Assembly (NCBI GenBank): GCA_003551005.1
Contig: PULR01000008.1
Coordinates: forward strand, 1 to 48,905
Direction: 5' to 3'
Source of the DNA: Mollicutes bacterium
GTDB lineage: Bacteria; Bacillota_I; Bacilli_A; Izemoplasmatales; Izemoplasmataceae
Length of the DNA stretch: 48,905 nt
How positions within the stretch are numbered: position 1 is the stretch's first letter; each line of letters opens with the position of its first letter. Of the stretch, positions 11,176 to 27,066 are shown piece by piece. A program made the translations under genes and the position numbers. The notes beneath the pieces are model-generated. The model saw only the letters and a program-made list of their open reading frames with translations, was not told the DNA's origin and did no database searches.

Positions 11176-11209
11176 ATAAAAAAGTCGGACATCAAGTCCG
11201 ACTTCTTTA
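11176..11209. terminator. Bidirectional terminator between convergent genes
   Basis: The stem AAGTCGGAC/GTCCGACTT is flanked by an A run on the left and a weaker T-rich stretch on the right. On the minus strand it ends in six T and overlaps the stop codon of the HD-GYP gene. Confidence 0.85.
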
Positions 11210-13207
11210 TGCCAGGGTGTTGAGCACGCCTTGATCGATCAGCGCCAGCGCGGCGTCAACGGCGTCCGGTGCGAACTGCTTACCCCGGTGTGCTCGCAGT
11301 TCGCTCACGATGCGTTCAATCGAGAGACTCTCCTGGTAGGGGCGATAATCCTTCATCGTGACAATGGCGTCCGCGACGGCGAGGATGCGGCCGCCGAGAC
11401 TGATCTGCTCCCCTTGCTTGCCATCGGGGTAGCCGCTTCCGTCCCACCACTCATGATGGTCGCGGACGAATGCGGATATGTGCGAGAGGTCCTCGGCCCC
11501 CTCGAGAGTGTCCGCCCCCAGGGTGACGTGCCGTTTGATTGTTTCGTATTCTTCCTCGTCCAGACTGCCGCTCTTGTTCAGGATGTAACTCGGAATACCC
11601 AGTTTGCCGATATCGTGCAGAAGGCCGGCCCAGTAAAGGTTGTCGAGCTGCTCTTTCGATACCTCCAGATGTTCGGCAATCTTCGTGGCCAGCCGCGCAA
11701 CATCCTCGGCGTGGCGTTTTGTGTAGGTGTCGTAGAGTTCGAGGGATTTCGCGAGTGTCAGGATGATGTCTTCCTTCATGCGCATCGTCTGGGTTGTCAG
11801 ATGGTTCTTCCAGAACAGTTTGTTCAAGAGATTGGTGAAGGATTTCATGCGTTTGCCCCGCGCGGCGGTCACCTTTTCGGGGTCGAAGTAATCCAGGCCG
11901 ATGATGAAACGATGCTTCGGCGTGAAGGAGAAGATCAGATAGCACCGGGCGAAGGTCTGTGTTTCTGTGAGCGAAAGTTGAGGTCCGTAGAGTTTGTGTA
12001 GAAGGGTGTGGATATCCGAGTGGAAGAGGACCTCCTCTCGTTCCATATCCTCCGGCGCATGCAGTTCGTATAGATAGGGGACATGTTTCGTCGTGTAGTG
12101 ATCGGCGAACGCCATCGAGATCTCCCCTTCGCGTTCATGGTAGCCGAAGGCGGCATCCGCATTGGGGAAAAGCAAGGTGACGATTTCATAAGTCCGCGTG
12201 GCGAAGGCCCGGTAGGACTGCTTGTCGGCGAGGATTTCTCTCGAGAGCGAGAGGAACCCCCGGATGTAGCGAAGCATCCGATCGAGGTCCTGAGTGGTCT
12301 CCATGACGGCTTCGGCGGTTCTCTCGTTGTGGTCCCGGAAAAATTTCAAGGCCAGCGTGGTCGTGACAAGGACCAAAAAGAAAGCGGTCAGCGTAAACAC
12401 CTGATGGGCGAATGCGTAAGTATGCGGATCGCCATCCAGTATGAAGAAGACGACGGCGCTCATGAACGGGATGGTCAAAGCGGCTATAATCCGATAGGTG
12501 AAATGGTAGGCGGCGAGCAGGAAGAACGCGATGAACAGATATAGATTGGGCAGGAGGGGGATGAGGATTTCGCTTGCAAGCCCTGCAAAGACGGCGACAA
12601 ACAGCACCAAAAAGAGCGAGAGGCCGAGGCCGCGTCTCAGGGAGTGAAGCTTTAATGGTCCATCCCGGTGTTCGCTGAGAAAGATCAGCGGGGCCAGAGT
12701 GGCGAATCCGGTGAAGGCTCCCAGAAGATTCGCCGAGAAGAACGGGATGCTGAGGGTCGCTCCCTCGATGAAGAGAAGGTGCACACCCAGTCTCAGACCG
12801 CCAAAGACGACGGCTAGTGAAAACGCCACGAGCAGTGCGGAGAGCGTTCCCTCAAGCGGAGAGGTCGCAAACGACTTTGCAAGCTTTAGCCGGTTCGCGA
12901 GGGAAGCTCCGATCTGCAACGTGACGAATAGAATGGCCGCTTTCGAAAGCAAAAGCCACAGGCCAAGCGCGGCCGCTTCGAAAGCCAGAACGGCACCGAT
13001 GAAGGCGACAGCCGATAAATACCCGATGATCGCGGGGATGATGAGCCGCTTGCCATGCGCGAGAACGAAACCCGCTGCCGCACCGGCGCCGAAGGCACAG
13101 ACGGTTGTCGGAAATGTCTCCAGGGAGCACAAACTCTGAAGGACAGCCGCCGCAAAGATGATCAAGAACACAAAAAGACCCTGTCGGCTCTGCTTACGAT
13201 GCTTCAT
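11207..13207 (-). CDS. Membrane HD-GYP protein (putative c-di-GMP phosphodiesterase)
   Basis: A 666-residue sensor. About residues 1-285 hold eight or more hydrophobic segments (MASE-like). Residues ~300-480 form a GAF-like cytosolic region. Residues ~490-666 form an HD-GYP domain with H-D-I-G-K-L-G-I-P, I-K-x-H-x-x-x-G, H-H-E and D-G-S-G-Y-P, plus V-A-D and R-P-Y, so all usual metal and substrate residues appear present. Such proteins hydrolyse c-di-GMP. Start ATG 13207 has AGGTGAG 3-4 nt upstream and lies just after a promoter; the longer open frame to 13282 runs through that promoter and is excluded. Divergent from the PhzF-like gene. The input signal is unknown. Confidence 0.9.
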   Translation of the reverse strand: MKHRKQSRQGLFVFLIIFAAAVLQSLCSLETFPTTVCAFGAGAAAGFVLAHGKRLIIPAIIGYLSAVAFIGAVLAFEAAALGLWLLLSKAAILFVTLQIGASLANRLKLAKSFATSPLEGTLSALLVAFSLAVVFGGLRLGVHLLFIEGATLSIPFFSANLLGAFTGFATLAPLIFLSEHRDGPLKLHSLRRGLGLSLFLVLFVAVFAGLASEILIPLLPNLYLFIAFFLLAAYHFTYRIIAALTIPFMSAVVFFILDGDPHTYAFAHQVFTLTAFFLVLVTTTLALKFFRDHNERTAEAVMETTQDLDRMLRYIRGFLSLSREILADKQSYRAFATRTYEIVTLLFPNADAAFGYHEREGEISMAFADHYTTKHVPYLYELHAPEDMEREEVLFHSDIHTLLHKLYGPQLSLTETQTFARCYLIFSFTPKHRFIIGLDYFDPEKVTAARGKRMKSFTNLLNKLFWKNHLTTQTMRMKEDIILTLAKSLELYDTYTKRHAEDVARLATKIAEHLEVSKEQLDNLYWAGLLHDIGKLGIPSYILNKSGSLDEEEYETIKRHVTLGADTLEGAEDLSHISAFVRDHHEWWDGSGYPDGKQGEQISLGGRILAVADAIVTMKDYRPYQESLSIERIVSELRAHRGKQFAPDAVDAALALIDQGVLNTLA

Positions 13208-13226
13208 ATTCTCACCTACCTTTGTC

Positions 13227-13255
13227 ATTATACCATAGCCGGAAATACCCGTCAG
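13227..13255 (-). promoter_or_regulatory. Promoter of the HD-GYP gene
   Basis: On the minus strand CTGACG (13250-13255), a 17-bp spacer ending in TGG, and a perfect TATAAT (13227-13232). The leader is only about 13 nt. Confidence 0.75.
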
Positions 13256-13276
13256 CCTACAATCGCGGTTGAGGGC

Positions 13277-13305
13277 TTTCAAAGCAGAGTGTGTTGCGCT
13301 ATACT
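13277..13305 (+). promoter_or_regulatory. Promoter of the PhzF-like gene
   Basis: TATACT (13300-13305) has a weak TTTCAA 17 bp upstream; it lies 21 bp before the start codon. Confidence 0.5.
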
Positions 13306-13326
13306 GAACATACAGGAGTGATCTGC

Positions 13327-14160
13327 ATGCACGTGCACCGACTGGCTGCTTTTGCCGATGGGAATCAAGGCGGTAACGAAGCCGGCGTCGTCCTTGAAGC
13401 GGAGGATTTGACGACTGATAGAATGCAGGAAGTCGCCGCGGCCACCGGGTATTCGGAGACAGCTTTTTTGCTTGAGGCTGAAGACGCCGATTACCGGGTC
13501 CGCTATTTTACTCCGAAACAGGAAGTCGATGTCTGCGGGCATGCGACATTGGCCCTGCTTTGGTTGTTGTTTGCTAGCGGCCTCGAGTGTGGCCGCTGTA
13601 CTTTGAAGACGAAGGCGGGTCTCATTGAAGGTGTCGCTGCAGCCCAACCCGAGCTACGCCTGCCGACGCCTGCCGTCCGGCTTATAGACCCGTCTGAGGC
13701 GGAACCTTATGCAACGCTTTTTCCTGTTCCCTTCACGCATTCCGCCGTCGTCGACAGCGGTGTGAAGGAAGTGTATCTGCGGATCGACGAAAGCTTTAGA
13801 CTGGATGCACTAGCGCCTTCTACACAGGCGCTGACAGCACAACTTATTCAAGATGGACTAGCCGGCGCCGCCGTCTATGCCCTAGGGGAAGTCGATGACA
13901 GGGGTTATCAGCAGGTACAGCTGAGAAACTTCCTGTCTGCAATCGGAATCGTGGAAGAGAGCGCGACGGGGACAGCGGCTGCCTCCCTTGCACAACTTTT
14001 ACATGAACAAGGGTACGGGAGCCGCTATCTTTTTACACAAGGACATGCGCTGAAAAAACCTTCGCGGCTGCATGCAACCGTCGGCAGGGATGCGGTTCAC
14101 GTCGGTGGTGCGGTCCGCCGTCTCGACACAGCCACCCGACAGACGGAATCGGGTGGTTGA
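13327..14160 (+). CDS. PhzF-family isomerase/epimerase-like protein
   Basis: A 277-residue protein of the PhzF (diaminopimelate-epimerase-like) fold. Marks are G-G-N-E-A-G-V-V near residue 17, the catalytic-glutamate segment G-Y-S-E-T-A-F, D-V-C-G-H-A-T-L-A in the first half and E-S-A-T-G-T-A-A-A in the second half. PhzF proper isomerises trans-2,3-dihydro-3-hydroxyanthranilate, but most genomic homologues have unknown substrates, and no phenazine genes are here. Start ATG 13327 is set by AGGAGTG 6 nt upstream. The next gene starts 47 bp downstream with its own -10 element. Confidence 0.88.
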   Translation: MHVHRLAAFADGNQGGNEAGVVLEAEDLTTDRMQEVAAATGYSETAFLLEAEDADYRVRYFTPKQEVDVCGHATLALLWLLFASGLECGRCTLKTKAGLIEGVAAAQPELRLPTPAVRLIDPSEAEPYATLFPVPFTHSAVVDSGVKEVYLRIDESFRLDALAPSTQALTAQLIQDGLAGAAVYALGEVDDRGYQQVQLRNFLSAIGIVEESATGTAAASLAQLLHEQGYGSRYLFTQGHALKKPSRLHATVGRDAVHVGGAVRRLDTATRQTESGG

Positions 14161-14173
14161 GCGGCTGCAAAAG

Positions 14174-14182
14174 TGGTAAAAT
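14174..14182 (+). promoter_or_regulatory. Extended -10 promoter of the coiled-coil/cls/ABC run
   Basis: TGGTAAAAT is a TG-n extended -10 element 25 bp before the coiled-coil gene. Confidence 0.55.
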
Positions 14183-14207
14183 AGATATTAACGGAAGGGG
14201 TGTATCC

Positions 14208-16934
14208 ATGTCGAGAGATGAAAAGGATCGCGTGAAGGGTTTCCAAAGCTGGTTGGATGCCTTGTACCAGCCGCTCTTCAAGCAATGGACGAACACGGGA
14301 GAAACCCTTGATAAGTTCGAGGATCTGCATCGGGCGAACGATGGGCGGATCGACCGCTCACTCGATGCGAACATCGACACGTACCGACAGAATCTCGAGC
14401 AGATTGAAAAAGAGCATGCAAAGCAAGCGAAGGCCATCGACGAGACCTTCGACAAAAAACGTAAAGGCCTCGAAAAAGCGGATGAGACAATCAACCGCCG
14501 TCATGCAGAGCGGCTTGCGGAAATCGAGGAGGTCTTCGAGCAGAAACGCTCACACTGCACCTTGAAGGACGAAAAGACCCAGGTCGTGTATGAGCGTGCA
14601 ATCAAAGCCGCGGAGGAAGACACACTACGAAAACAAACGGACGCTGAATCAATGGTGGATGAAGCGATCGAGCGCCACAACGCCAACATCACCGAGCTCA
14701 TGCGTGAAAACAATATCAAGCATGCAGTCAATGATAATCGCTTGCAGCTTGCGCGCGTCGAATACGATGTCGCACACGCGAAGCTTGAAAAGGACATCGA
14801 GAGCAAGCTTGAAGCAATCAAGCAAGAACGCAGCCAGCTCGAATCGGATTACAAAACGCAGGTGGCGGATCTTGAAAAGACCCGCCGTAGAACCCTCGCT
14901 CCGCACGATGAAGGCATACGCAAGTTGAAATCCGAACACAAGGCTGAGCGTGAACGGCTCGAAAGCGAACTCGAAGAAGCGACGAACAAGCAACGTAGCT
15001 ACAAAAAAGAAGCGGAGAAACTCGGCGATCAGCAGACCATCGACCGCGTGGAAAAGAAACTGAAGGAGATCAGACGCGACCACCGGGATAAGAAACGAAG
15101 TTGTTCCGAGCGTCAGAATCAGGAGCTAGAAGAAAAGAAGCACCAACGCGATGAGGCGGTGAAGCAGATCGACGACCAGCTGCTTGAACTCAAGGCGGCT
15201 TTCCTGCAGTCGCTTTCGGAACTGCTGAAACGCAAGCACCATCTGGAAACCGAAAATTTCATCCAGCTTGATGAGACGAACACGGCGTTCAACCTTGCCG
15301 ATTCCCGTCATCGCAAGGACCGACGGGTGTTGGAGCTTGAAAACGATGTGCAGACCCTCAACATCAACCGCGCGCTTGAAGAGGCCCGTGAAGAGAACGA
15401 TTACCTCACCAAGCGCTCAAAACCCGAAGGCGACCTGGAGATCAACGAAGCCTGGCTCCAGCACAAGCTTGATGAAACCGATCACCAACGGACCCTCGAG
15501 GTCGCCCGGGCCAAACGTTCACGCGATGAAACGGAGGCGACCATCACCCGGGATCTGCGTCTGAAGGAGAACGACATCGCCCGGCGCCGGCTTCAGCACA
15601 AGCGATCCTACGACCTCGAACATCTCGAGATACAAAAAGCACTGCGCATATACAATCAGGACTACGAAAACGAACAAACCATCCTCGATCATTTCCTCAA
15701 ATACGCAAAAAACCACAACGCCTTGAAAAATGAATATGCGAATGCGCATCGTCCCGATTTCGATGCCGAAAGCGATCAGCGGACCCAGCTGCGCATCGAA
15801 CGCTTCGAAGCGATGCAGGAAGATGCGCGGCGGCAGCACGAAAACATCGTCGCGCGCATCGAAACCATCAGCGCCCGCGAGAGAAACCTGCATTTGCGGG
15901 CTTACGAGGAAGTCCAGACCGCCAGCGACGCTTCCCTCGAGCGGCTGAAAGAACAGCACGAGACCACGGCCAGGCAGGATATGGCCCGACTCGAATCGCT
16001 GCATCCCCGTCGCGACCGCCGCAGGATCGCCCGCATCCGCAAGGAGAACGAGGAACGCGAAGCCTCGCGACAGCGCGCCTATGAAGAGAGGAAGCGCGAG
16101 CTCCGCGAGCGTATCCGCCTGCACGAGGACATGCTAAAGAGCATCGACGAGAAGCGTCGGCAGTCGCTCGAAGAGGCCAAGACTCTGCTCAACCACGCAC
16201 TCGATGAACTTGACAACTTGATCGCCGATGCCAGACGCCAGGCTGAAGAGGAGAAGCAGCGTCTGCAGCGGGGTTTCGAAGAAATCAAGCGCCGCGCGTC
16301 TCTTTTCAACAGCTTTCAAAAAGACCGTCGCGAGGAGACTCTCCAGCAGGCGAAGACGTATTTGAACGCCCGCATCCACCGCATGAAGAACCGCAAATCA
16401 AGACTCGACAATCGGCATCAGACCCAGCTTGATGCGCTTGAGACCGAGTGGCAGGCCTATAGCTCCGACGTCGACAAACGCACCCGGGAGATGGAAGCGC
16501 AATACCAGCAAGCGCTTGAGGACCTTGAGAGCGAACACCAGAAGCGTCAGTCCCAGCTCAAGGAAGCCCACGAAGAAGAAAGCCGAAGGCTCAGGCGCTA
16601 CATGGAACATCTCGGAGAAAAACACGACACCGCCCTTGAGGAAATCAAGGAGCGCACTGAGCAGGAGATCACCCGCTATTTCGAGGAGAAATCGCGTCTC
16701 GAACGTGAATACGAAGCGGAATCCGACCGCTTAGAAAAAGCGCATGCGCGGTTTGTCGAGGAAAAACGAAAAGAAGAGGAAGCCTTCGCGGGTGAAATCA
16801 ATCGGACCATGGAAAAGCTGCATCAGCATATCGCCAAGCAGCCCGCTTCGCGGATGCGTTCCCGGGAAGCCGCCTCACTCGTGCCGCTGCTTCTGGGTGA
16901 ACGCAGCCTGGAAACCAGCCAGGGAAGCTCTTGA
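14208..16934 (+). CDS. Giant coiled-coil protein of unknown function
   Basis: A 908-residue protein made almost wholly of charged alpha-helical sequence rich in Glu, Lys, Arg, Gln and Leu, with very few Gly or Pro. There is no signal peptide, membrane segment, Walker motif or SMC-type hinge. Breaks with Pro/Gly occur near residues ~240 (L-A-P-H-D-E-G), ~420 (K-P-E-G-D), ~515 (R-P-D-F-D) and ~600 (H-P-R-R-D), dividing the rod into about five segments. The first ~45 residues, with several Trp/Phe/Tyr, look like a small head; the last ~30 lose heptad character. I do not recognise a family; a filament or scaffold protein is inference. GGAAGGGG precedes ATG 14208. Cardiolipin synthase follows after 50 nt without a terminator. 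Confidence 0.75.
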   Translation: MSRDEKDRVKGFQSWLDALYQPLFKQWTNTGETLDKFEDLHRANDGRIDRSLDANIDTYRQNLEQIEKEHAKQAKAIDETFDKKRKGLEKADETINRRHAERLAEIEEVFEQKRSHCTLKDEKTQVVYERAIKAAEEDTLRKQTDAESMVDEAIERHNANITELMRENNIKHAVNDNRLQLARVEYDVAHAKLEKDIESKLEAIKQERSQLESDYKTQVADLEKTRRRTLAPHDEGIRKLKSEHKAERERLESELEEATNKQRSYKKEAEKLGDQQTIDRVEKKLKEIRRDHRDKKRSCSERQNQELEEKKHQRDEAVKQIDDQLLELKAAFLQSLSELLKRKHHLETENFIQLDETNTAFNLADSRHRKDRRVLELENDVQTLNINRALEEAREENDYLTKRSKPEGDLEINEAWLQHKLDETDHQRTLEVARAKRSRDETEATITRDLRLKENDIARRRLQHKRSYDLEHLEIQKALRIYNQDYENEQTILDHFLKYAKNHNALKNEYANAHRPDFDAESDQRTQLRIERFEAMQEDARRQHENIVARIETISARERNLHLRAYEEVQTASDASLERLKEQHETTARQDMARLESLHPRRDRRRIARIRKENEEREASRQRAYEERKRELRERIRLHEDMLKSIDEKRRQSLEEAKTLLNHALDELDNLIADARRQAEEEKQRLQRGFEEIKRRASLFNSFQKDRREETLQQAKTYLNARIHRMKNRKSRLDNRHQTQLDALETEWQAYSSDVDKRTREMEAQYQQALEDLESEHQKRQSQLKEAHEEESRRLRRYMEHLGEKHDTALEEIKERTEQEITRYFEEKSRLEREYEAESDRLEKAHARFVEEKRKEEEAFAGEINRTMEKLHQHIAKQPASRMRSREAASLVPLLLGERSLETSQGSS

Positions 16935-16984
16935 TGCCGATTCTATAGACACGAACACGGTTACCTTAGCAAAAGGACGGTTGC

Positions 16985-18529
16985 ATGGAAAAGAACCTAC
17001 GCAAACTCATGATGATTTTCTTCGTCCTGGCTGTTGCGGCCGGACTGCGCTTCGGGTTGGAGTTCGTCTTCAACATCATCTGGGAGACCTTCGACCTTTC
17101 GAATTTCTCGGGTTATCTTGTCCGGGGAGCTTTTTTAGCGTTGTTCGCGATCATCTGGCTGTCCATCACCATCCGCAGCGAGAACCCGCATCAGAAACTG
17201 CCGTGGTTGCTGCTGCTGGCTTTCGAGCCGGTCGTCGGCACCACCTTGTTCCTGACTTTCGGGCGGAACTTCAAAAAAAGCCTCCGCTACCGCCGCCGGC
17301 CCTACATGCACGGGGACCGCTACATCACACATGAAGTCCGACCCTACGAAGTGGAGTTCCCCTTGTTGGAATATGACGAGGACATCCAGGAGGCCGCGCA
17401 CACGGCGCACCGCCTTTCACACCACCAGCCCTTCATCGACCAGAGCCACATTGAGGTCCTCCATAACGGCGAGGAATTCTATCCCGACCTGGTCCAATCC
17501 ATCCAGGAAGCCGAACATTTCATTCTCTTTGAATTCTTTATCCTCCGAAGCGACGGACGTGGCCGGGAAATTGTCGATCTGCTTATGCAGCGGGCGGCAG
17601 AAGGCATTGAAGTCAAGATTATCATCGACGCACTCGGCAGTGCGATGATCAGTCCGGCCTATCTTCGTAGAATCCGGCGTTCGAATGTCGAGATTATCAT
17701 CAACGACCGGATCTATTTCCCGCTATTCAACACCCGCATCAACTTCCGGAATCACCGCAAGATTGTCGTCGTCGACGGCAAGATCGGCTACACGGGCGGG
17801 ATGAACATCGCCAATGAATACGACAACACCACGATGTCCGGACCCTATTTCCGTGACACGCAGCTGCGAATCGAAGGTGCGGCGGTCCGCTCCCTGACCG
17901 CCTTGTTCTTCAAGGACTATTACTACAACACCGGGCGCTTCATCGACGATGACGCTTATTATCCCGACTACTCGGTCGAGGGCCGCGGGCTCGTACAGAT
18001 TCTGCAATCCGGACCCGATTCCGATGTGGCGGCCATCCGCAATCTCTATCTCAAGCTCATCCTGAACGCCAAGCGAAGCATCAAGATCATGACCCCCTAC
18101 ATGGCGCTGGACCAGGAAACGCTGACCGCCATCAAGGTCGCGGCCCAAAGCGGTGTCGACGTCGAGATCATCATCCCCGGCGAGCCTGATAAGTACCTCG
18201 TCTACAAAGTCACGAAAGCCTTTGTCGGACCTCTGCTCAAGGATGGTGTGAAGATTTATCAATACGTGCGGGGCTTCGCACATGCCAAAGTGCTGATCGT
18301 CGACGACAAGATCGCCTCGGTCGGTTCCTACAACCTCGACAACCGGAGTGCCGTCATCGATTTCGAAGTCACGGCCTTGATTTCGGGCGCATCGGTCGGC
18401 GAACTGCTCGAGGATTTTGAAGAGGACAAACAGGACTCGGCTCGCATCGATGCCGATGCCTGGTTCAAAAGACCGCTGCCTACGCGATTGTTCGAAGGCA
18501 TCATGAGCATCTTCTCGCCCATCATCTAA
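16985..18529 (+). CDS. cls: Cardiolipin synthase (phospholipase D family)
   Basis: Condenses two phosphatidylglycerol molecules to cardiolipin and glycerol at the membrane. The 514 residues hold two N-terminal membrane helices (about 8-30 and 44-62, with a third hydrophobic stretch at 74-92) and two HKD motifs. The first is H257-x-K259-x4-D264 and the second H433-x-K435-x4-D440, each followed by the usual G-(T/S) turn (Y-T-G-G-M-N and V-G-S-Y-N). Length and layout match the Bacillus-type Cls. AAAGGACGG precedes the ATG. It sits between the coiled-coil gene and an ABC exporter, with 50- and 18-nt gaps, so one transcript is likely. Confidence 0.95.
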   Translation: MEKNLRKLMMIFFVLAVAAGLRFGLEFVFNIIWETFDLSNFSGYLVRGAFLALFAIIWLSITIRSENPHQKLPWLLLLAFEPVVGTTLFLTFGRNFKKSLRYRRRPYMHGDRYITHEVRPYEVEFPLLEYDEDIQEAAHTAHRLSHHQPFIDQSHIEVLHNGEEFYPDLVQSIQEAEHFILFEFFILRSDGRGREIVDLLMQRAAEGIEVKIIIDALGSAMISPAYLRRIRRSNVEIIINDRIYFPLFNTRINFRNHRKIVVVDGKIGYTGGMNIANEYDNTTMSGPYFRDTQLRIEGAAVRSLTALFFKDYYYNTGRFIDDDAYYPDYSVEGRGLVQILQSGPDSDVAAIRNLYLKLILNAKRSIKIMTPYMALDQETLTAIKVAAQSGVDVEIIIPGEPDKYLVYKVTKAFVGPLLKDGVKIYQYVRGFAHAKVLIVDDKIASVGSYNLDNRSAVIDFEVTALISGASVGELLEDFEEDKQDSARIDADAWFKRPLPTRLFEGIMSIFSPII

Positions 18530-18547
18530 AAAAGGGAGGCTGACTTC

Positions 18548-19468
18548 ATGATTGACATCAAGAATTTGTATAAGGATTACGAGCGCACCCGGGCCCTGCA
18601 CGGCATCAGCTTCTCGGTACGGCCGGAAGCCTTCTTCGCCCTGCTCGGGCCGAATGGGGCGGGCAAGTCGACGACCATCGAAATCCTCTCGACATTGAAA
18701 TCGAAGACGGCCGGCACGGTGCAGGTTGCTACCCATCGTCTCGATGAAGCGGACGGTGCCATCCGTGAAGCCATCGGGGTGGTCTTTCAGACCTCCGCTT
18801 TGGATGCGACGTTGACGGTGCGGGAGAACCTTGAAGTGCGGGGCGCTTTTTATTCAAAGGACCGTTCAAGGATCCGCCGCCGGATCGATGAAGTTGCCGA
18901 CGAGATCGACATCCGGGAGTTTCTTGATCGGCGTGTGGGGACCCTCTCCGGCGGGCAGCGCCGCCGGGCGGACCTCGCTAGGGCGCTTTTGAACCGGCCG
19001 GAAGTGCTGTTGCTTGATGAGCCGACGACCGGGCTGGACCCTCGAAGCCGGGAGCGCATCTGGAGGTTGGTGTTGAAGCTCAAGCGCCGCCACCGCATGA
19101 CGATCGTTCTGACGACTCACTACATGGAGGAAGTCAACGACTGCGACCAGGTTGTCGTGCTTCATGAGGGGCGGATTGTTGCTGAAGATTCCGCGCAGAG
19201 ACTCAGGGAGCGCTACGCGCATGATAAACTGCTCATCACGCCGGCCTCGCCGGCTCTTTCGAGTCGTCTCGAGCGTGAGGGCATCGACTGCCATCCCCTC
19301 GGCGCGCGCCTTCACATACCGGTGGTCTCGCCGTTTCAAGCCATTGAACTCATTCAACGCTTTGAAGCGGACATCGAAACCTTCGAGATCGTCAAGGGGA
19401 CGATGGACGATGTCTTCTTGAATCTGACGGGAAGGACGTTGAGCGATCATGATGCGTCCGTTGCTTAA
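18548..19468 (+). CDS. ABC transporter ATP-binding protein (DrrA/CcmA type)
   Basis: A 306-residue ATPase with Walker A G-P-N-G-A-G-K-S-T, Q-loop F-Q, signature L-S-G-G-Q, Walker B L-L-L-D-E-P-T-T-G-L-D-P and H-loop T-H-Y-M. The C-terminal ~90 residues resemble the extra domain of drug or lipid exporters of the DrrA group. A GGGAGG site precedes the ATG. The partner permease gene begins 20 nt before this stop, so the two are translationally coupled. The substrate is unknown; the position behind cls makes a lipid or envelope substrate thinkable but unproven. Confidence 0.92.
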   Translation: MIDIKNLYKDYERTRALHGISFSVRPEAFFALLGPNGAGKSTTIEILSTLKSKTAGTVQVATHRLDEADGAIREAIGVVFQTSALDATLTVRENLEVRGAFYSKDRSRIRRRIDEVADEIDIREFLDRRVGTLSGGQRRRADLARALLNRPEVLLLDEPTTGLDPRSRERIWRLVLKLKRRHRMTIVLTTHYMEEVNDCDQVVVLHEGRIVAEDSAQRLRERYAHDKLLITPASPALSSRLEREGIDCHPLGARLHIPVVSPFQAIELIQRFEADIETFEIVKGTMDDVFLNLTGRTLSDHDASVA

Positions 19469-20309
19469 GCGGCACATGCTCATCTTCCTTCGCGATCGAT
19501 GGGCGGTGTTCTTCTCGTTTCTGAGCGTTGTCATCATTCTGTTTCTGTTTGCGTTCTTCCTTGGCAGCTTGCATGACGCGAGCGTGCCGGAAGCCTTCCG
19601 GGGGACTGCGGAGGCCGATTACCTCGTGAATGCCTGGTTGTTCTCCGGTGTGCTCTTCGTCTCGACGGTGACGATTCCTTTCGGTTTTCTGACGTTCATG
19701 GTGCGGGATGTCGAGACCGGGGTGCTCGACGATTTCTTCGTCACACCGGCGCCCAGGACCCGCATTGTCATCAGTTATCTGCTGGCCGCCGTCATAATCT
19801 CGACGGGACTGGGGATCGTGAATCTGCTGGTGGGGATGATTGTGATCTTCCTCGTCTCCTCCTACACCCTTCCGGTTCTGACTGTGTTTCACATCCTCGC
19901 GCTCGTGCTCTTCTCAAGCGCAATCTTCTCCGCTTTGGCCTACGTCGTAATGTCCTTCCTTCGTTCCATGAATGCGACCGGCACGCTCAACACGCTGGTC
20001 GGGACCCTGATCGGCTTTCTGGCCGGCATCTACGTGCCGGTGGGCAATTTCTCCTCAAGAGTCGGCTCGGTGCTTTCGTTGTTGCCGACGCTGCAGCTTT
20101 CAAGCCTGTTCCGTCAGGTCTACATGGCGGACGCCCTTGGGACTCTCTATGGTGGTGCTTCGGCCGATGGGTATCGGCTCTTCTTCGGTGTCGACCTTGA
20201 GATCGGCGGCACGCTGCTTCCTGCTTGGAGCCTTTATGCTTTCGGTGCTTTCTGGCTGGCAGGTTTCCTGGTACTTTCGGTGGTGCGGCTTAGCCGCTTC
20301 AAGCGATAA
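19449..20309 (+). CDS. ABC-2 type permease
   Basis: A 286-residue membrane protein with six hydrophobic segments (roughly residues 18-38, 60-82, 100-135, 137-165, 170-200 and 255-278). It is the typical ABC-2 partner of the preceding ATPase, which it overlaps by 20 nt. The conserved region after the fourth helix (S-A-I-F-S-A-L-A-Y-V-V) and the P-V-G-N-F loop before helix six fit multidrug/lipid exporters of the DrrB/YadH type. Two ATG codons stand in tandem at 19449 and 19452; either may be used. Confidence 0.9.
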   Translation: MMRPLLKRHMLIFLRDRWAVFFSFLSVVIILFLFAFFLGSLHDASVPEAFRGTAEADYLVNAWLFSGVLFVSTVTIPFGFLTFMVRDVETGVLDDFFVTPAPRTRIVISYLLAAVIISTGLGIVNLLVGMIVIFLVSSYTLPVLTVFHILALVLFSSAIFSALAYVVMSFLRSMNATGTLNTLVGTLIGFLAGIYVPVGNFSSRVGSVLSLLPTLQLSSLFRQVYMADALGTLYGGASADGYRLFFGVDLEIGGTLLPAWSLYAFGAFWLAGFLVLSVVRLSRFKR

Positions 20310-20334
20310 AAAAAAGGACGCACAATGTGCGTCC
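20306..20334 (-). terminator. Intrinsic terminator of the GGDEF gene (minus strand)
   Basis: The stem GGACGCAC/GTGCGTCC with a 3-nt loop is followed, on the minus strand, by eight T. It also touches the stop codon of the plus-strand permease gene. Confidence 0.88.
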
Positions 20335-20337
20335 GAT

Positions 20338-21288
20338 TCAACGCGTTCCAAAACGCCCGGCATCGGGCGCTTCCTGGCGACGCGTTTTTTTGTGTGCATA
20401 CATGCGTCTATCCGCGGTTGAGAGCAACCGCCGCAGATGTTTTCCATCGAGGGTTCTGCCGGCTTCGATGTCCACTTCGCCGATCGCAATGCTCAGGCGG
20501 TCGTGAAGGTTCTTTAGTTCTGTCTCGATGTCGTCGATGGCGCGCTTGAGCGTTGCGGGCGGGGTTGTATGGAGGACGACGAGGAATTCGTCCCCGCCGA
20601 TCCGGTATACTTCTTCATGCTTGTCAATTTCGCTCTTGAGGGTCTTGGCGAAACGTTTCAACGTTTCGTCCCCGCGGTCATGGCCGAAGTGGTCGTTGAC
20701 TTCCTTGAAGTGATTGAAATCCAGCATCAGCAGCGTTCCAGCCTCCTCCGGGGTCAGATCTTCATAATCCTGAAAGAAGGCCCTCCGGTTGGGAAGCCCG
20801 GTGAGGAAGTCGGTGCGGTGCGCGAGGCGTAGCGCTTCATTTTTCTGCTCGAGGCGCCGGCGGATGCTGATGAGTTCGCTGTTCAGTTTTCCCATCTCTT
20901 CGAAAGCCTTCTCATCCGGCGATGGCGAAGACCGCTTGCGTGTTTCATTGATCTGACGATTGTTCAGTTTCAGCATCTGCTCGACGGCCGTGACCTCAGA
21001 GGGCTCTTTCTCGCCGAGCACGAAGAAGCGACCCTCATCATGTACAAGGCTGATGCGGGTGTTGATTCGTTCCTCTCCGCCTGAGAAGGGCAGGTCCATC
21101 CCATAGCAGGCCCCATGCTTCCGGGCGGTCTCCATGCCGTGAATGAATCTTTCCCTGGCATCCTCCGCGATATAATCGCCGAGCAGCGCACCGCTTTCGA
21201 ATGGAACACCGGTGCTGTTTTCCACGATGCGGTCGATGGTATTCTCCTTGACGACAAGGAAGAAACCGTCCTTCGCGTCACTAGTCAT
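20338..21288 (-). CDS. GGDEF diguanylate cyclase
   Basis: A 316-residue cytosolic protein. Residues 1-100 look like a PAS-type sensor, ~101-155 a coiled linker, and ~156-316 a GGDEF domain. The domain has D-x-L-T-G-L-P-N-R-R, the metal-binding D-F-N-H-F-K-x-V-N-D segment and an intact G-G-D-E-F signature (231-235), so it should make c-di-GMP from GTP. The R-x-x-D inhibitory site before GGDEF is missing its Arg (S-E-I-D). Start ATG 21288 lies 8 nt inside the end of the upstream cobalamin-binding gene, with AGGTGA 8 nt before it: the two are translationally coupled. Confidence 0.92.
   Translation of the reverse strand: MTSDAKDGFFLVVKENTIDRIVENSTGVPFESGALLGDYIAEDARERFIHGMETARKHGACYGMDLPFSGGEERINTRISLVHDEGRFFVLGEKEPSEVTAVEQMLKLNNRQINETRKRSSPSPDEKAFEEMGKLNSELISIRRRLEQKNEALRLAHRTDFLTGLPNRRAFFQDYEDLTPEEAGTLLMLDFNHFKEVNDHFGHDRGDETLKRFAKTLKSEIDKHEEVYRIGGDEFLVVLHTTPPATLKRAIDDIETELKNLHDRLSIAIGEVDIEAGRTLDGKHLRRLLSTADRRMYAHKKTRRQEAPDAGRFGTR
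20354..20390 (+). terminator. Possible plus-strand terminator of the ABC exporter run
   Basis: The hairpin CGCCCG-GCAT-CGGGCG (20354-20369) is followed 15 nt later by seven T, and AACGCG/CGCGTT could extend the base of the stem. It lies inside the 3' end of the opposite-strand GGDEF gene, so it may be coincidental. Confidence 0.35.
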
Positions 21289-22237
21289 CAATCAGTTCAC
21301 CTGCCTTCTGCACGGCGTCGGAGAGGTTTTCTCCGTATGCGTCCGCATCGAGTTTTTCCTTCAGAGACGGGTCCTGGTTGAAGGGCTGTCCGCCGACCAG
21401 GATCGGGATGTCCCGGGTCCGCTCGTCGCCCTTGATGCGTTGAATGACATCCTCTAAAGCGGTGAGTTCGATCGGCAGCGTGATGCCGAGCGCGATGAGG
21501 TCCGGCGAATGAGCAATAACAGCATCGACAATCTCCGATTCAGGGAGGTTGCCGCCCAGGTAGTGCGTCCGGTAGCCTTTGTACTCCAGCACATCGGCGA
21601 CCATGCGGATGCCGATCTCATGCGGTGCCTCTCCGGGGGCCGCGGCCAGGACGAGTCCTCCGTGTTTCGGGGTGGCGAACAAGTCGGGGTAATATTGCGA
21701 CATCGCGTATTGCGTAGAGGCGGTGATGTAGTGTTCGGTGGCGATGGAGATGCGTCCAGTCTGCCAGAGATAGCCGGTCTCGTAGAGTATCGGCTGGAAA
21801 ACGTGCAGATAGACCTGATCAAGATTGTGTGTGTGTTTCCATTCGAGACTCATCGACAGCGCCTTTTCAGCCGAACCTTCCAGCAGGGCGTCGAGGAATT
21901 CCCTGGCCTCGCTCGCAAGCGGGGAGTCCTGGATGGCATTGTGCGGGGGCGTATCAATCGGGAACTTTTCCTTCGGCAAATTCGCCCCATGAACGATTCG
22001 AAAGAGTTCCTTTACGAGTGTCCAGAACTGTTTGCGTGTCAGATTGAAGACGTCGAATCGGCTTGCCAGCCAGCTCAAATAGGCACGGAAGAGTCTGTTT
22101 GACTGGTAACGCCTCGAAACCTCCAGATATTCCGCAAAAGGCTGTATATCCAGCATCAACAGCTCCCGCTGACGTTTATTGTCGAACCAGGTCGACGGGA
22201 GGACTTTTTCCAGTTGTTCTCTACGGATTTTGTTCAT
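21281..22237 (-). CDS. Cobalamin-binding, CarH-like sensor protein without HTH
   Basis: A 318-residue protein. Residues ~1-100 are helical and unassigned. Residues ~103-190 form a four-helix cap with W158-x9-E168-H169, the motif that contacts the adenosyl group in CarH/LitR photoreceptors. Residues ~195-318 form a Rossmann-like B12-binding domain with H206-E-I-G209 (the HxxG half of D/ExHxxG), then V-L-E-Y-K-G and Y-L-G-G-N-L-P. The acidic residue lies three rather than two positions before His206 (E-A-P-H). There is no MerR-type DNA-binding domain, so output is probably protein-based, most likely via the coupled GGDEF gene. AGGGGGGA precedes the start. Divergent from a cobalamin adenosyltransferase gene. 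Confidence 0.88.
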   Translation of the reverse strand: MNKIRREQLEKVLPSTWFDNKRQRELLMLDIQPFAEYLEVSRRYQSNRLFRAYLSWLASRFDVFNLTRKQFWTLVKELFRIVHGANLPKEKFPIDTPPHNAIQDSPLASEAREFLDALLEGSAEKALSMSLEWKHTHNLDQVYLHVFQPILYETGYLWQTGRISIATEHYITASTQYAMSQYYPDLFATPKHGGLVLAAAPGEAPHEIGIRMVADVLEYKGYRTHYLGGNLPESEIVDAVIAHSPDLIALGITLPIELTALEDVIQRIKGDERTRDIPILVGGQPFNQDPSLKEKLDADAYGENLSDAVQKAGELIDD

Positions 22238-25011: not shown

Positions 25012-27036
25012 TCACCGGTAGAACTGATCGAGCAGTCCTTGCTTGATAAGGGTGATGGCGTGGGCTGCGATATCGGCGTCGAACTGGGTGCCGCTGTAGG
25101 TTTCAAGTTCGTGTAGAATTTCCTCTTTTGAGAGTTTACGCGCGTAGGATTGTTCCCGGGCCATGGTCGCGACGGCTTCTGCGACAGAAAGAACGGCCGC
25201 TTCTTTTGGTATCTCTTCGCCCTTCAGCCCTTCGGGATAGCCTTCCCCGTCCGGCCGTTCGTGGTGGTGTAGCACACTCTGGGCGATGCGGCTCAGAATC
25301 GTGGCGTCTCCGAGCAGGTCCGCACCGAGCTTGGGATGTGCCTGCATGGCTTCGTATTCCGCCAGGGTGAATTCGCCCGCCTTTTTGACGATGTCCGGGT
25401 CGACGCCCAGCTTGCCGATGTCGTGGACGATGCCCGCCCAATAAAGCTCCCTTGCACGCTCCGGAGTATAACCGGCGGCCCTGGCGAGCGGTTCGGCCAA
25501 AGCGGCGACATCCTCGCTGTGGCGGCGTGTGTAGTCATCATAGAGGTCGATGGTCCGCAACGCGCTCTGCACGAGGCTTGACCGCATCCGGTCGTGTTCT
25601 AAAGCGGCAGTCTCCGTCTCATAGAAACTGTTGAGGAACAGCTGCATCGACTGGAAATAATCGAGCATGAAGGCATCAATACGTGCCGTGCTGTTCTGAG
25701 CGATGTCGAAGCTCATCTCGCAGCTGATTTCCTCTGTGAGCTTGACGCTCATCAGGATGCTTTCCTTGATTCTCGGGTTTCTTTCGTCGTAGGTGCTGTA
25801 TTCTTCTTTCAGACTTTCTTGCAGGCGTTCTTCCGCGTTCTCGATATGGACGGGCTCGTCTAGATTGAGAATCCAACTTTCGATGTTGAACCGGATTGAA
25901 TTCAGATGCTCGATATCGTATCCCACCGCATCGATGAATCGGACTTCATCTTCCGTGCGGATCAAGCAGGCACCGTAGTCGATGCGGCTGAAGAAACGAT
26001 AGATGATGTGAAACAGATTGCGTGCTTGATCCTCGCGCTGCTCTTCATCAGAGACCTCCATCTGCATGGAGAGGGAGAAGAGCCGCTCGACTGCCTCGAC
26101 CAACTGTTCGCGACGGTGTTTTTTTTCATAGAGTCCGCGTTGTCTTTGTTCGATGGCATGACTGATGAAGCGCACGGCGAAGAAGGTGGTGACAATCAGG
26201 ATGAGGAAGAGATTGACGCCGAACGTGTAGCGGAAATACCCGATTTCGAGGGTGAACGGCGGAAAGAGCGCCATCGCCGTGAGAAAGATGGTCGTATTGA
26301 CGATGAAGGCGCGGTAGCTGAACCGTCTCGCAACAAAGATGACGACCGGGAGATAGAGGAAATTGTGTGCATCATAGGTCAAAAACGGGATGTTCTGATT
26401 GAAGAACAACATCGTCAGGAAACCGAAACCCACATACAAAAGCAACTCGCGTGTCGTGCCATAACGGTCCGGAAGCGGGTCCATCCAGATCGCGAGGGCG
26501 ATGGGCATGGCAAAGACCAAAAGCGAGAAGAAATCCCCGGCCGCCCAGACAAAAAGACTCTCGATGAAGGCCTCGGTTTCAACCGCCCCCAGCAGCAATA
26601 GTCCGGTGTTGCCAAGCACTGAGTTGAGAAGGGTGAAGGCGAGAAACCCCGACAGAACAGCCTTCAGCGACAGCCAGCAGATTTCCAGCCTGGCGCTTTC
26701 AGGATTTCTGGCTATCAGATAGGCGCCGACGAGTGCAGAAATCATCCCGCTCAAGGCAGAAAGCAGAACCTGAAAGATCAGCCGCGGGAGTTCGACGCCT
26801 TGAATCAAAAACAAACTGAACGCATAGCCAAGAACCAACCCGGCACCGATGTGAAGAAGCATCCGTCTCTCGAAACGCCCAATCAAGAAACCCAGCGAGA
26901 CCCCCGCTGCGGGCCAGATGATGCTGGCATCGAATTCTCCCAGGGTGAAAGCATGGCCGAGGGGGATCGCGACGGCTGTGAGGGCTGTTGCGAGCCAGTA
27001 TTCTTTGTAGGTGTACACACGAGCGAGGATGTCCAT
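25012..27036 (-). CDS. MASE1-HD-GYP membrane protein
   Basis: A 674-residue protein. Residues ~1-290 are a MASE1-type membrane sensor with eight or more helices and the W-P-A-A-G-V-S-L-G-F motif after helix one. Residues ~300-490 are a cytosolic sensor-like region, and ~495-674 an HD-GYP domain with H-D-I-G-K-L-G, H-H-H-E-R and D-G-E-G-Y-P. The helix that normally reads V-A-D-x-x-x-A-M has V-A-E, and the R-P-Y motif is replaced by Q-S-Y, so catalytic competence is uncertain. Start ATG 27036 has GGAGGGG 6 nt upstream. Same general build as the HD-GYP protein ending at 11207, but a different membrane family. Confidence 0.88.
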   Translation of the reverse strand: MDILARVYTYKEYWLATALTAVAIPLGHAFTLGEFDASIIWPAAGVSLGFLIGRFERRMLLHIGAGLVLGYAFSLFLIQGVELPRLIFQVLLSALSGMISALVGAYLIARNPESARLEICWLSLKAVLSGFLAFTLLNSVLGNTGLLLLGAVETEAFIESLFVWAAGDFFSLLVFAMPIALAIWMDPLPDRYGTTRELLLYVGFGFLTMLFFNQNIPFLTYDAHNFLYLPVVIFVARRFSYRAFIVNTTIFLTAMALFPPFTLEIGYFRYTFGVNLFLILIVTTFFAVRFISHAIEQRQRGLYEKKHRREQLVEAVERLFSLSMQMEVSDEEQREDQARNLFHIIYRFFSRIDYGACLIRTEDEVRFIDAVGYDIEHLNSIRFNIESWILNLDEPVHIENAEERLQESLKEEYSTYDERNPRIKESILMSVKLTEEISCEMSFDIAQNSTARIDAFMLDYFQSMQLFLNSFYETETAALEHDRMRSSLVQSALRTIDLYDDYTRRHSEDVAALAEPLARAAGYTPERARELYWAGIVHDIGKLGVDPDIVKKAGEFTLAEYEAMQAHPKLGADLLGDATILSRIAQSVLHHHERPDGEGYPEGLKGEEIPKEAAVLSVAEAVATMAREQSYARKLSKEEILHELETYSGTQFDADIAAHAITLIKQGLLDQFYR

Positions 27037-27066
27037 CAAAACCCCTCCAGGTTGTCTTCGTCTTTC

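Follow-up and report, generated by a model that had tools for sequence, protein, structure and literature searches.

A predicted twice-folded helical rod protein encoded next to cardiolipin synthase, a candidate cytoskeletal strut of wall-less Izimaplasma-like bacteria

The rod protein and its locus

The window analysed here is the whole 48,905-nt stretch of contig PULR01000008.1 (assembly GCA_003551005.1, forward strand) from a Mollicutes bacterium of the Izemoplasmataceae, and its source is a 1.35-Mb draft genome that is 97% complete. It encodes a 908-amino-acid protein (coil 1, hereafter the rod; 14208..16934, +), which lies directly upstream of a cardiolipin synthase homologue (cls) and which we regard, as the fairly probable reading of our data, as a candidate cytoplasmic cytoskeletal strut of wall-less cells. 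The reading frame opens with an ATG at 14208, preceded by a GGAAGGGG-like ribosome site, and its stop codon ends at 16934; an alternative TTG start is open 17 codons 5' of the ATG. The chance of 908 open codons at the local GC content is ~1e-15, and another 39 genomes from the taxonomic family have homologous open frames, which confirms the 908-residue protein proposed in an initial annotation made from the sequence alone.

The rod belongs to a real, conserved and unnamed family. It has no Pfam match itself, and none of 23 family members matches Pfam or NCBIfam at E<=0.001 (0/23 in each library), in agreement with the earlier statement that no family was recognised. Likewise, the absence of ATPase, membrane and signal sequences holds: there is no Walker A motif, and thus no sign of the ATPase head of SMC, MukB or Rad50, and the peak 19-mer hydrophobicity (Kyte-Doolittle) is 0.38, with no visible membrane span or signal sequence. 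The composition is 43% DEKR and 22% ILVMFYW, with a net charge of -14. Literature searches for Izemoplasma with coiled-coil (by title) or Izemoplasmat- with cytoskelet- returned nothing on the rod protein.

The cls homologue (16985..18529, +; 514 aa) starts 50 nt past the rod stop. It possesses PLDc_N, PLDc and PLDc_2 domains (Pfam) and two intact HKD (HxKxxxxD) motifs at residues 257 and 433, as in cardiolipin synthases of the PLD fold, and is the sole match in its genome at E<=1e-30. An ABC transporter ATPase (18548..19468, +) starts 18 nt past cls and is overlapped by an ABC-2 type permease (19449..20309, +), both identified by Pfam, so that the order of rod, cls and exporter stands as first described. 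Scans of positions 13000-20600 for promoters (3 found vs 2.4 expected) and terminators (12 found vs 9.2 expected) gave no more than chance.

Predicted fold

AlphaFold, run with 38 aligned rows, predicts three long helices with a mean pLDDT of 84.7: helix 1 (residues 3-272, ~270 residues; 14214..15023, +), helix 2 (275-596, 322 residues; 15030..15995, +) and helix 3 (604-877, 274 residues; 16017..16838, +). They are joined by hairpin 1 (273-274; 15024..15029, +) and hairpin 2 (597-603; 15996..16016, +). A C-terminal tail (878-908; 16839..16931, +), delimited by alignment and lengths, is specific to the window's clade and missing from the MreB-bearing clade. A separate model from 14 clade-B rows (pLDDT 84.4) has helices at 2-267, 271-591 (with one break at 498) and 597-881, and its hairpins (268-270, 592-596) fall at places homologous to 273-274 and 597-603. 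Residue D274 in hairpin 1 is near-invariant (37/38 rows); conserved prolines occupy columns 232, 406 and 516 within predicted helices and column 600 within hairpin 2.

AlphaFold is prone to render coiled coils as long helices, and because of this tendency we examined the fold-back from the sequences alone. In an antiparallel helix pair opposite charges are expected to covary along i+j = constant, and charges were centred within each clade before covariation was computed. Of 456 offsets scanned for the pair of helices 1 and 2, 548 scored best, which puts the hairpin at 274; of 477 scanned for the pair of helices 2 and 3, the top ones after smoothing were 1203-1208. Helix 2, the central one, thus covaries in antiparallel fashion with both others. 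No covariation peak stood at the expected place for parallel pairings or between helices 1 and 3 (z -0.55 for the parallel pairing of helices 1 and 3).

When rows were permuted within clades, the observed band was reached in 0/2000 cases for both hairpins; the centre of 1203 used for helices 2 and 3 was picked after the scan, and the predicted centre of 1200 gives 2/2000. A blind charge-covariation scan over all centres is independent of this choice, although its scan settings were fixed after the earlier covariation results. Its top two separate centres are 273.5 and 602.5, and 0/500 null scans, in which 20-column blocks were shuffled among rows and all centres considered, reach either. Permutations and blind scans used 33 rows, five truncated rows of the 38 having been dropped. 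Scanned by clade, the centres are 274.5 and 603.5 in clade A (20 rows) and 268.5 and 598.5 in clade B (13 rows, own numbering), the latter close to the clade-B AlphaFold turns. The signal is present both near and far from the turns and weak in some segments, and within each of the three helices the charges at spacings i,i+3 and i,i+4 covary negatively, as a helix would give. Prediction and covariation together thus replace the roughly five helical segments of the initial annotation, for which structure modelling had been recommended, by a fold-back of three helices and two hairpins. The covariation scan also demonstrates that about 30 divergent coiled-coil sequences, a kind of material usually treated as intractable, can reveal a fold-back topology.

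The hydrophobic residues do not follow a heptad. Over whole helices the period is 3.62-3.70, with a power of 18.7-51.2 at the peak vs 0.5-3.1 at 3.5; helix 1 has a period of 3.625 (49.7 vs 3.1 at 3.5) and helix 3 one of 3.63 (51.2), and the control, a simulated and not a natural heptad, returned 3.5. Judged from its sequence, the rod is a nearly untwisted coil and not a heptad coiled coil of the intermediate-filament kind, and a bundle of its helices would be hardly supercoiled because the hydrophobic stripe is nearly straight. The stripe of the middle helix is weaker, which would fit burial on two faces. At 1.5 angstrom per residue the straight strut would measure ~40-48 nm.

Similarity searches touch on two other readings of such a protein. 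The best Foldseek matches among solved structures are MukB (9gm7, E 2.4e-5; 7nyx, E 1.1e-4) and other SMC-type arms, which likewise consist of long antiparallel helices. That the rod is a DNA-organising arm of SMC, Rad50 or MukB type without heads is nevertheless extremely improbable: TM-scores are about 0.1 (0.11-0.13 for the two MukB matches), the Walker motif is missing, no Pfam match to SMC_N occurs among the 23 members, and the model, helical over its whole length but for turns of 2 and 7 residues, has two hairpins in place of one globular hinge. A clear match to an SMC-like family had been named in the initial annotation as grounds for giving up its idea, and none was found. A profile search of solved structures, on the other hand, returned apolipoprotein A-IV (E 1.3e-6) and the designed three-helix bundle 4tql (E 6.3e-5), and a hydrophobic period of roughly 3.6-3.67 belongs to the 11-residue type; both would agree with a lipid-binding, apolipoprotein-like amphipathic bundle whose helices open onto the membrane. 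We hold this to be very unlikely, since the stripe is narrow (22% ILVMFYW vs 43% DEKR), interhelix covariation indicates that the helices pack on each other, and the structure matches may reflect composition and period only. The 4tql design has antiparallel, untwisted helices of 80 residues; the rod differs in being natural and in having helices three to four times longer. Spectrin repeats are three-helix fold-backs of ~106 aa arranged in tandem, whereas in the rod a single three-helix unit spans the whole chain.

Distribution and evolution of the rod family

We use "Izimaplasma-like" as a label for the wall-less taxonomic family of the window (49 genomes); our sample of the order comprises 90 genomes, the remainder belonging to two sister families (34 + 7). 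Matches at BLAST level are present in 6/6 genomes of the genus (five relatives at 30-35% identity) and in 25/49 of the family. Most genomes without such a match possess a charged, Gly- and Pro-poor frame of 870-895 aa before cls, which aligns almost gap-free with the BLAST-level matches. A 23-row profile finds strong matches in 39/49 family genomes; with G020, which has the rod as two contig-end fragments at the expected locus, the total is 40/49. The rod is present in 18/20 family genomes of at least 90% completeness. No strong match was found in the two sister families by this profile search, and in a sample of the class the profile matches 19/296 genomes, all 19 of the same family as the window. 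The two rod clades, aligned separately, match end to end (hhalign score 361 vs 64 for the reversed control), and there is no doubt that they are related.

The rod is fast-evolving by comparison with its neighbour, as identity within the genus is 30-35% for the rod vs 65-70% for cls. Its length, in turn, is nearly fixed: 33 full rows measure 873-908 aa and contain 9 distinct internal indel events, 4/9 of them at residues 597-605, and hairpin 2 accounts for the main internal length difference (2-3 residues). In a comparison set, a coil of ~1160 aa, 97 such events were counted in 10 rows, including one unrelated protein (L113). Helix lengths that stay almost constant at sequence identities as low as 11-15% suggest that rod length is held by selection.

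The family lacks the transpeptidase PF00905 (0/49 genomes), as do 89/90 genomes of the order; controls were positive in 10/14. The sole match in the order (G062:C40:12172-13092, E 7.2e-69) is either contamination or a relict. Cells of a cultured Izemoplasma strain are wall-less cocci of ~300-800 nm (PMC8397711).

Gene order in relatives

The profile search for relatives, which had been proposed together with a survey of their gene neighbours, identified two recurrent partners: cls and, in one clade, mreBabc with an EAL gene. By a hand tally, cls is the next gene on the same strand in 32/40 genomes with a rod, so that neighbours without cls in all relatives, the other finding said to speak against the original idea, are not what we observe. 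Measured in 28 genomes, the distance from rod to cls ranges from -1 to 152 nt. Among the remaining genomes, G018 and G022 have two opposite-strand genes between rod and cls (gap 2257 nt), G017 has cls on another contig and the rod still with MreB, G020, G024 and G035 have the exporter 3' of the rod and yielded no cls anywhere in the genome, and in G038 and G039 the contig ends. None of 20 cls loci of the sister families adjoins such a rod.

Upstream genes differ by clade: a PhzF-like protein (13291..14160, +; Pfam) is kept in the window's clade only, whereas the other clade has a pyroglutamyl peptidase, an alpha/beta hydrolase, three MreB genes and an EAL gene. That cls nonetheless directly follows the rod could mean that the rod serves as a dedicated scaffold for cardiolipin or Cls and concentrates the enzyme, together with its product, in curved or polar membrane, and Chlamydia trachomatis offers a parallel in that its localized cardiolipin synthesis steers MreB assembly (PMC9499288). 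We consider this unlikely: three genomes (G020, G024, G035) retain rod and exporter with no cls found, G017 has its cls elsewhere, two similar giant rods adjoin ruvB-like genes with no cls near, and the rod has no hydrophobic segment and a net charge of -14.

True MreB (E<=1e-60) is encoded in 13/49 family genomes. The order mreBabc-EAL-rod lies on one contig in seven of them (G017, G021, G022, G023, G045, G046, G048; for G023 and G048 the retrieved stretch covers part of the mreB run and the remainder follows from coordinates), and in 4/13 (G016, G018, G025, G047) a contig break falls within the locus. Other relatives document loss in place: G020 has peptidase-hydrolase-EAL-rod without mreBabc, G019 and G024 have peptidase-hydrolase-rod, and G044 has peptidase-rod. 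MreB was not found in these four genomes, which are 75-88% complete. The loci L117, L047, L067 and L057 illustrate stepwise loss, first of mreBabc and then of EAL, between the peptidase/hydrolase pair and the rod. MreB matches of 70-80 bits in the window's clade are mostly frames of ~615 aa, which by their length alone are probably DnaK.

Since the rod persists where MreB, cls or the exporter is lost, our data argue that it has a function of its own and is no mere accessory of cls. The same pattern, a rod that stays although every one of its neighbours has gone or changed place in one relative or another, would also arise if the rod were a structural protein functionally unlinked to cls, MreB and exporter and its neighbours mere hitchhikers of gene order. 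This is rather doubtful, given that the short-gap rod-cls arrangement persists across genera sharing little else nearby, which suggests selection on the arrangement.

Several peculiarities of these neighbours deserve mention. At L103:6120-10668 an EAL protein is encoded behind a tandem of three MreB genes, and the same run occurs in L102, L104, L105 and L106; the N-terminal half of the EAL protein matches GGDEF weakly at best. In the sister-family genome G059 (L093) the EAL gene lies 5' of three MreB genes instead. We read the run as a c-di-GMP-linked MreB module of wall-less bacteria. The cls gene is in two pieces or has an in-frame stop in G023, G018 and G027 (L059:5745-7285, L060:4322-5823, L061:2178-3550), owing either to sequencing error or to decay. 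Two sister-family loci (L074:1371-2603, L079:22-1305) have cls followed by an RmuC-family gene within ~25 nt, with no ABC exporter there.

A candidate cytoskeletal strut

The observation made in the initial annotation is confirmed and its interpretation partly supported. The suggestion of a cytoskeletal scaffold is strengthened by the position of the rod gene in relatives, immediately after three MreB genes and an EAL gene, in genomes free of transpeptidase (0/49). The part that had the scaffold organise cardiolipin regions is no more than plausible, as the rod outlives cls and the sister families have cls without the rod.

Under the cytoskeletal reading, one chain would form three long alpha helices with two tight turns, and the middle helix would pack antiparallel against both others to give a straight strut, as prediction and covariation indicate. 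Such rods may pack side by side or end to end into a membrane skeleton that replaces the missing wall. Because the MreB-bearing relatives encode it with three MreB genes and EAL, the rod probably started out alongside MreB filaments as their partner and became independent of MreB later. A coupling to cardiolipin is a plausible candidate link: co-expression with cls may put anionic lipid where skeleton meets membrane, and a possible precedent, by analogy, is the localized cardiolipin synthesis that directs MreB assembly in Chlamydia trachomatis (PMC9499288).

A few observations weigh against the rod as a strut of this kind. With an AlphaFold pTM of 0.39, the helices may pack in more than one way and the chain may be a monomer, dimer or polymer; the lack of covariation between helices 1 and 3 leaves a closed three-helix bundle no more than possible. 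Genus g10 (G032, G033) has MreB-EAL and rod-cls apart, and the window's own clade is without MreB. Finally, the rod was not detected in 9/49 family genomes, including the 96%-complete G029.

Among known systems, the MreB-fibril ribbon of Spiroplasma is comparable, in that a wall-less bacterium has several MreB proteins which work with a lineage-specific filament protein (PMC8432965). Fibril, however, is a nucleosidase-derived protein of 512 aa, whereas the rod is an all-helical fold-back that persists where MreB is lost and, lacking any Pfam match, gives no sign of a nucleosidase-like N-terminal domain. HMW2 of Mycoplasma pneumoniae, which resides in an attachment organelle, is likewise a large coiled-coil cytoskeletal protein of a wall-less bacterium; PMC4923136 describes it as 1818 aa long, with eleven intermittent coiled-coil regions and a dimer in a parallel bundle. 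The rod, in contrast, is a single chain of ~900 aa predicted to fold back twice, with antiparallel intrachain pairing by covariation.

Free-living wall-less bacteria must manage shape and division without peptidoglycan, and a family of nearly fixed length, retained at a cardiolipin synthase locus after in-place loss of MreB, provides a concrete candidate to test for the load-bearing role. Its relatives constitute a natural deletion series: with MreB, with EAL only, and with neither.

Two further giant coils

The same genome encodes two more proteins of this kind in tandem, coil 2 (1159 aa; G000:C1:13943-17419) and coil 3 (960 aa; 17468-20347), also labelled L118 13943-17419 and L119 469-3348. 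They lie ~9 kb from ftsZ, and the genes divergent from them are presumably ruvB-queA, as read from their first residues. Coil 3, with no Pfam match in 9 members, occurs in 38/49 family genomes and in 20/34 and 0/7 of the sister families, and each of the 49 family genomes has the 960-aa coil, the 908-aa rod, or both.

For blind scans, length and composition served to select 35 rows of coil 2 and 45 rows of coil 3; one coil 2 row, L132 of 1059 aa, may be a misassigned coil 3. Coil 2 has hairpins at 297 (0/300 null scans) and 762 (1/300). Coil 3 is less clear, with 655.5 (0/300), a weaker centre at ~306 (12/300) and a further dip at ~898. In hhalign the rod scores 180.6 against coil 2 (reversed coil 2: 95.8) and 140.7 against coil 3 (reversed coil 3: 53.3). 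Common descent of the three giant coils is no more than suggested by these scores, because the rod reaches 143.7 against its own reverse. We tentatively entertain, as a possibility on the weaker side, that the Izimaplasma-like skeleton consists of giant twice-folded rods of nearly fixed length (~900, 1160 and 960 aa), successors of peptidoglycan and then of MreB, with the 900-aa rod anchored at cardiolipin synthesis. If true, such rods would make up a bacterial cytoskeletal class unlike the actin, tubulin, bactofilin or heptad-filament types.

The ~1160-aa frames weakly matched by the rod profile had been considered as SMC, which was rejected: 9/10 are the second giant coil family, and the tenth (L113) is lipoprotein-like with few charged residues. 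The set was dropped as an SMC control.

Other genes in the window

On the reverse strand at 11207-13282 lies an HD-domain protein, with an HD_5 Pfam match after an N-terminal part that looks membrane-spanning; in the window's clade it keeps its place upstream of PhzF-rod-cls. A second protein, at 25012-27039 (-), is of similar build by appearance only. At 20338-22237 (-) a B12-binding-domain protein overlaps a GGDEF protein, possibly a B12- or light-sensing diguanylate cyclase pair, and the two occupy the same place in L031.

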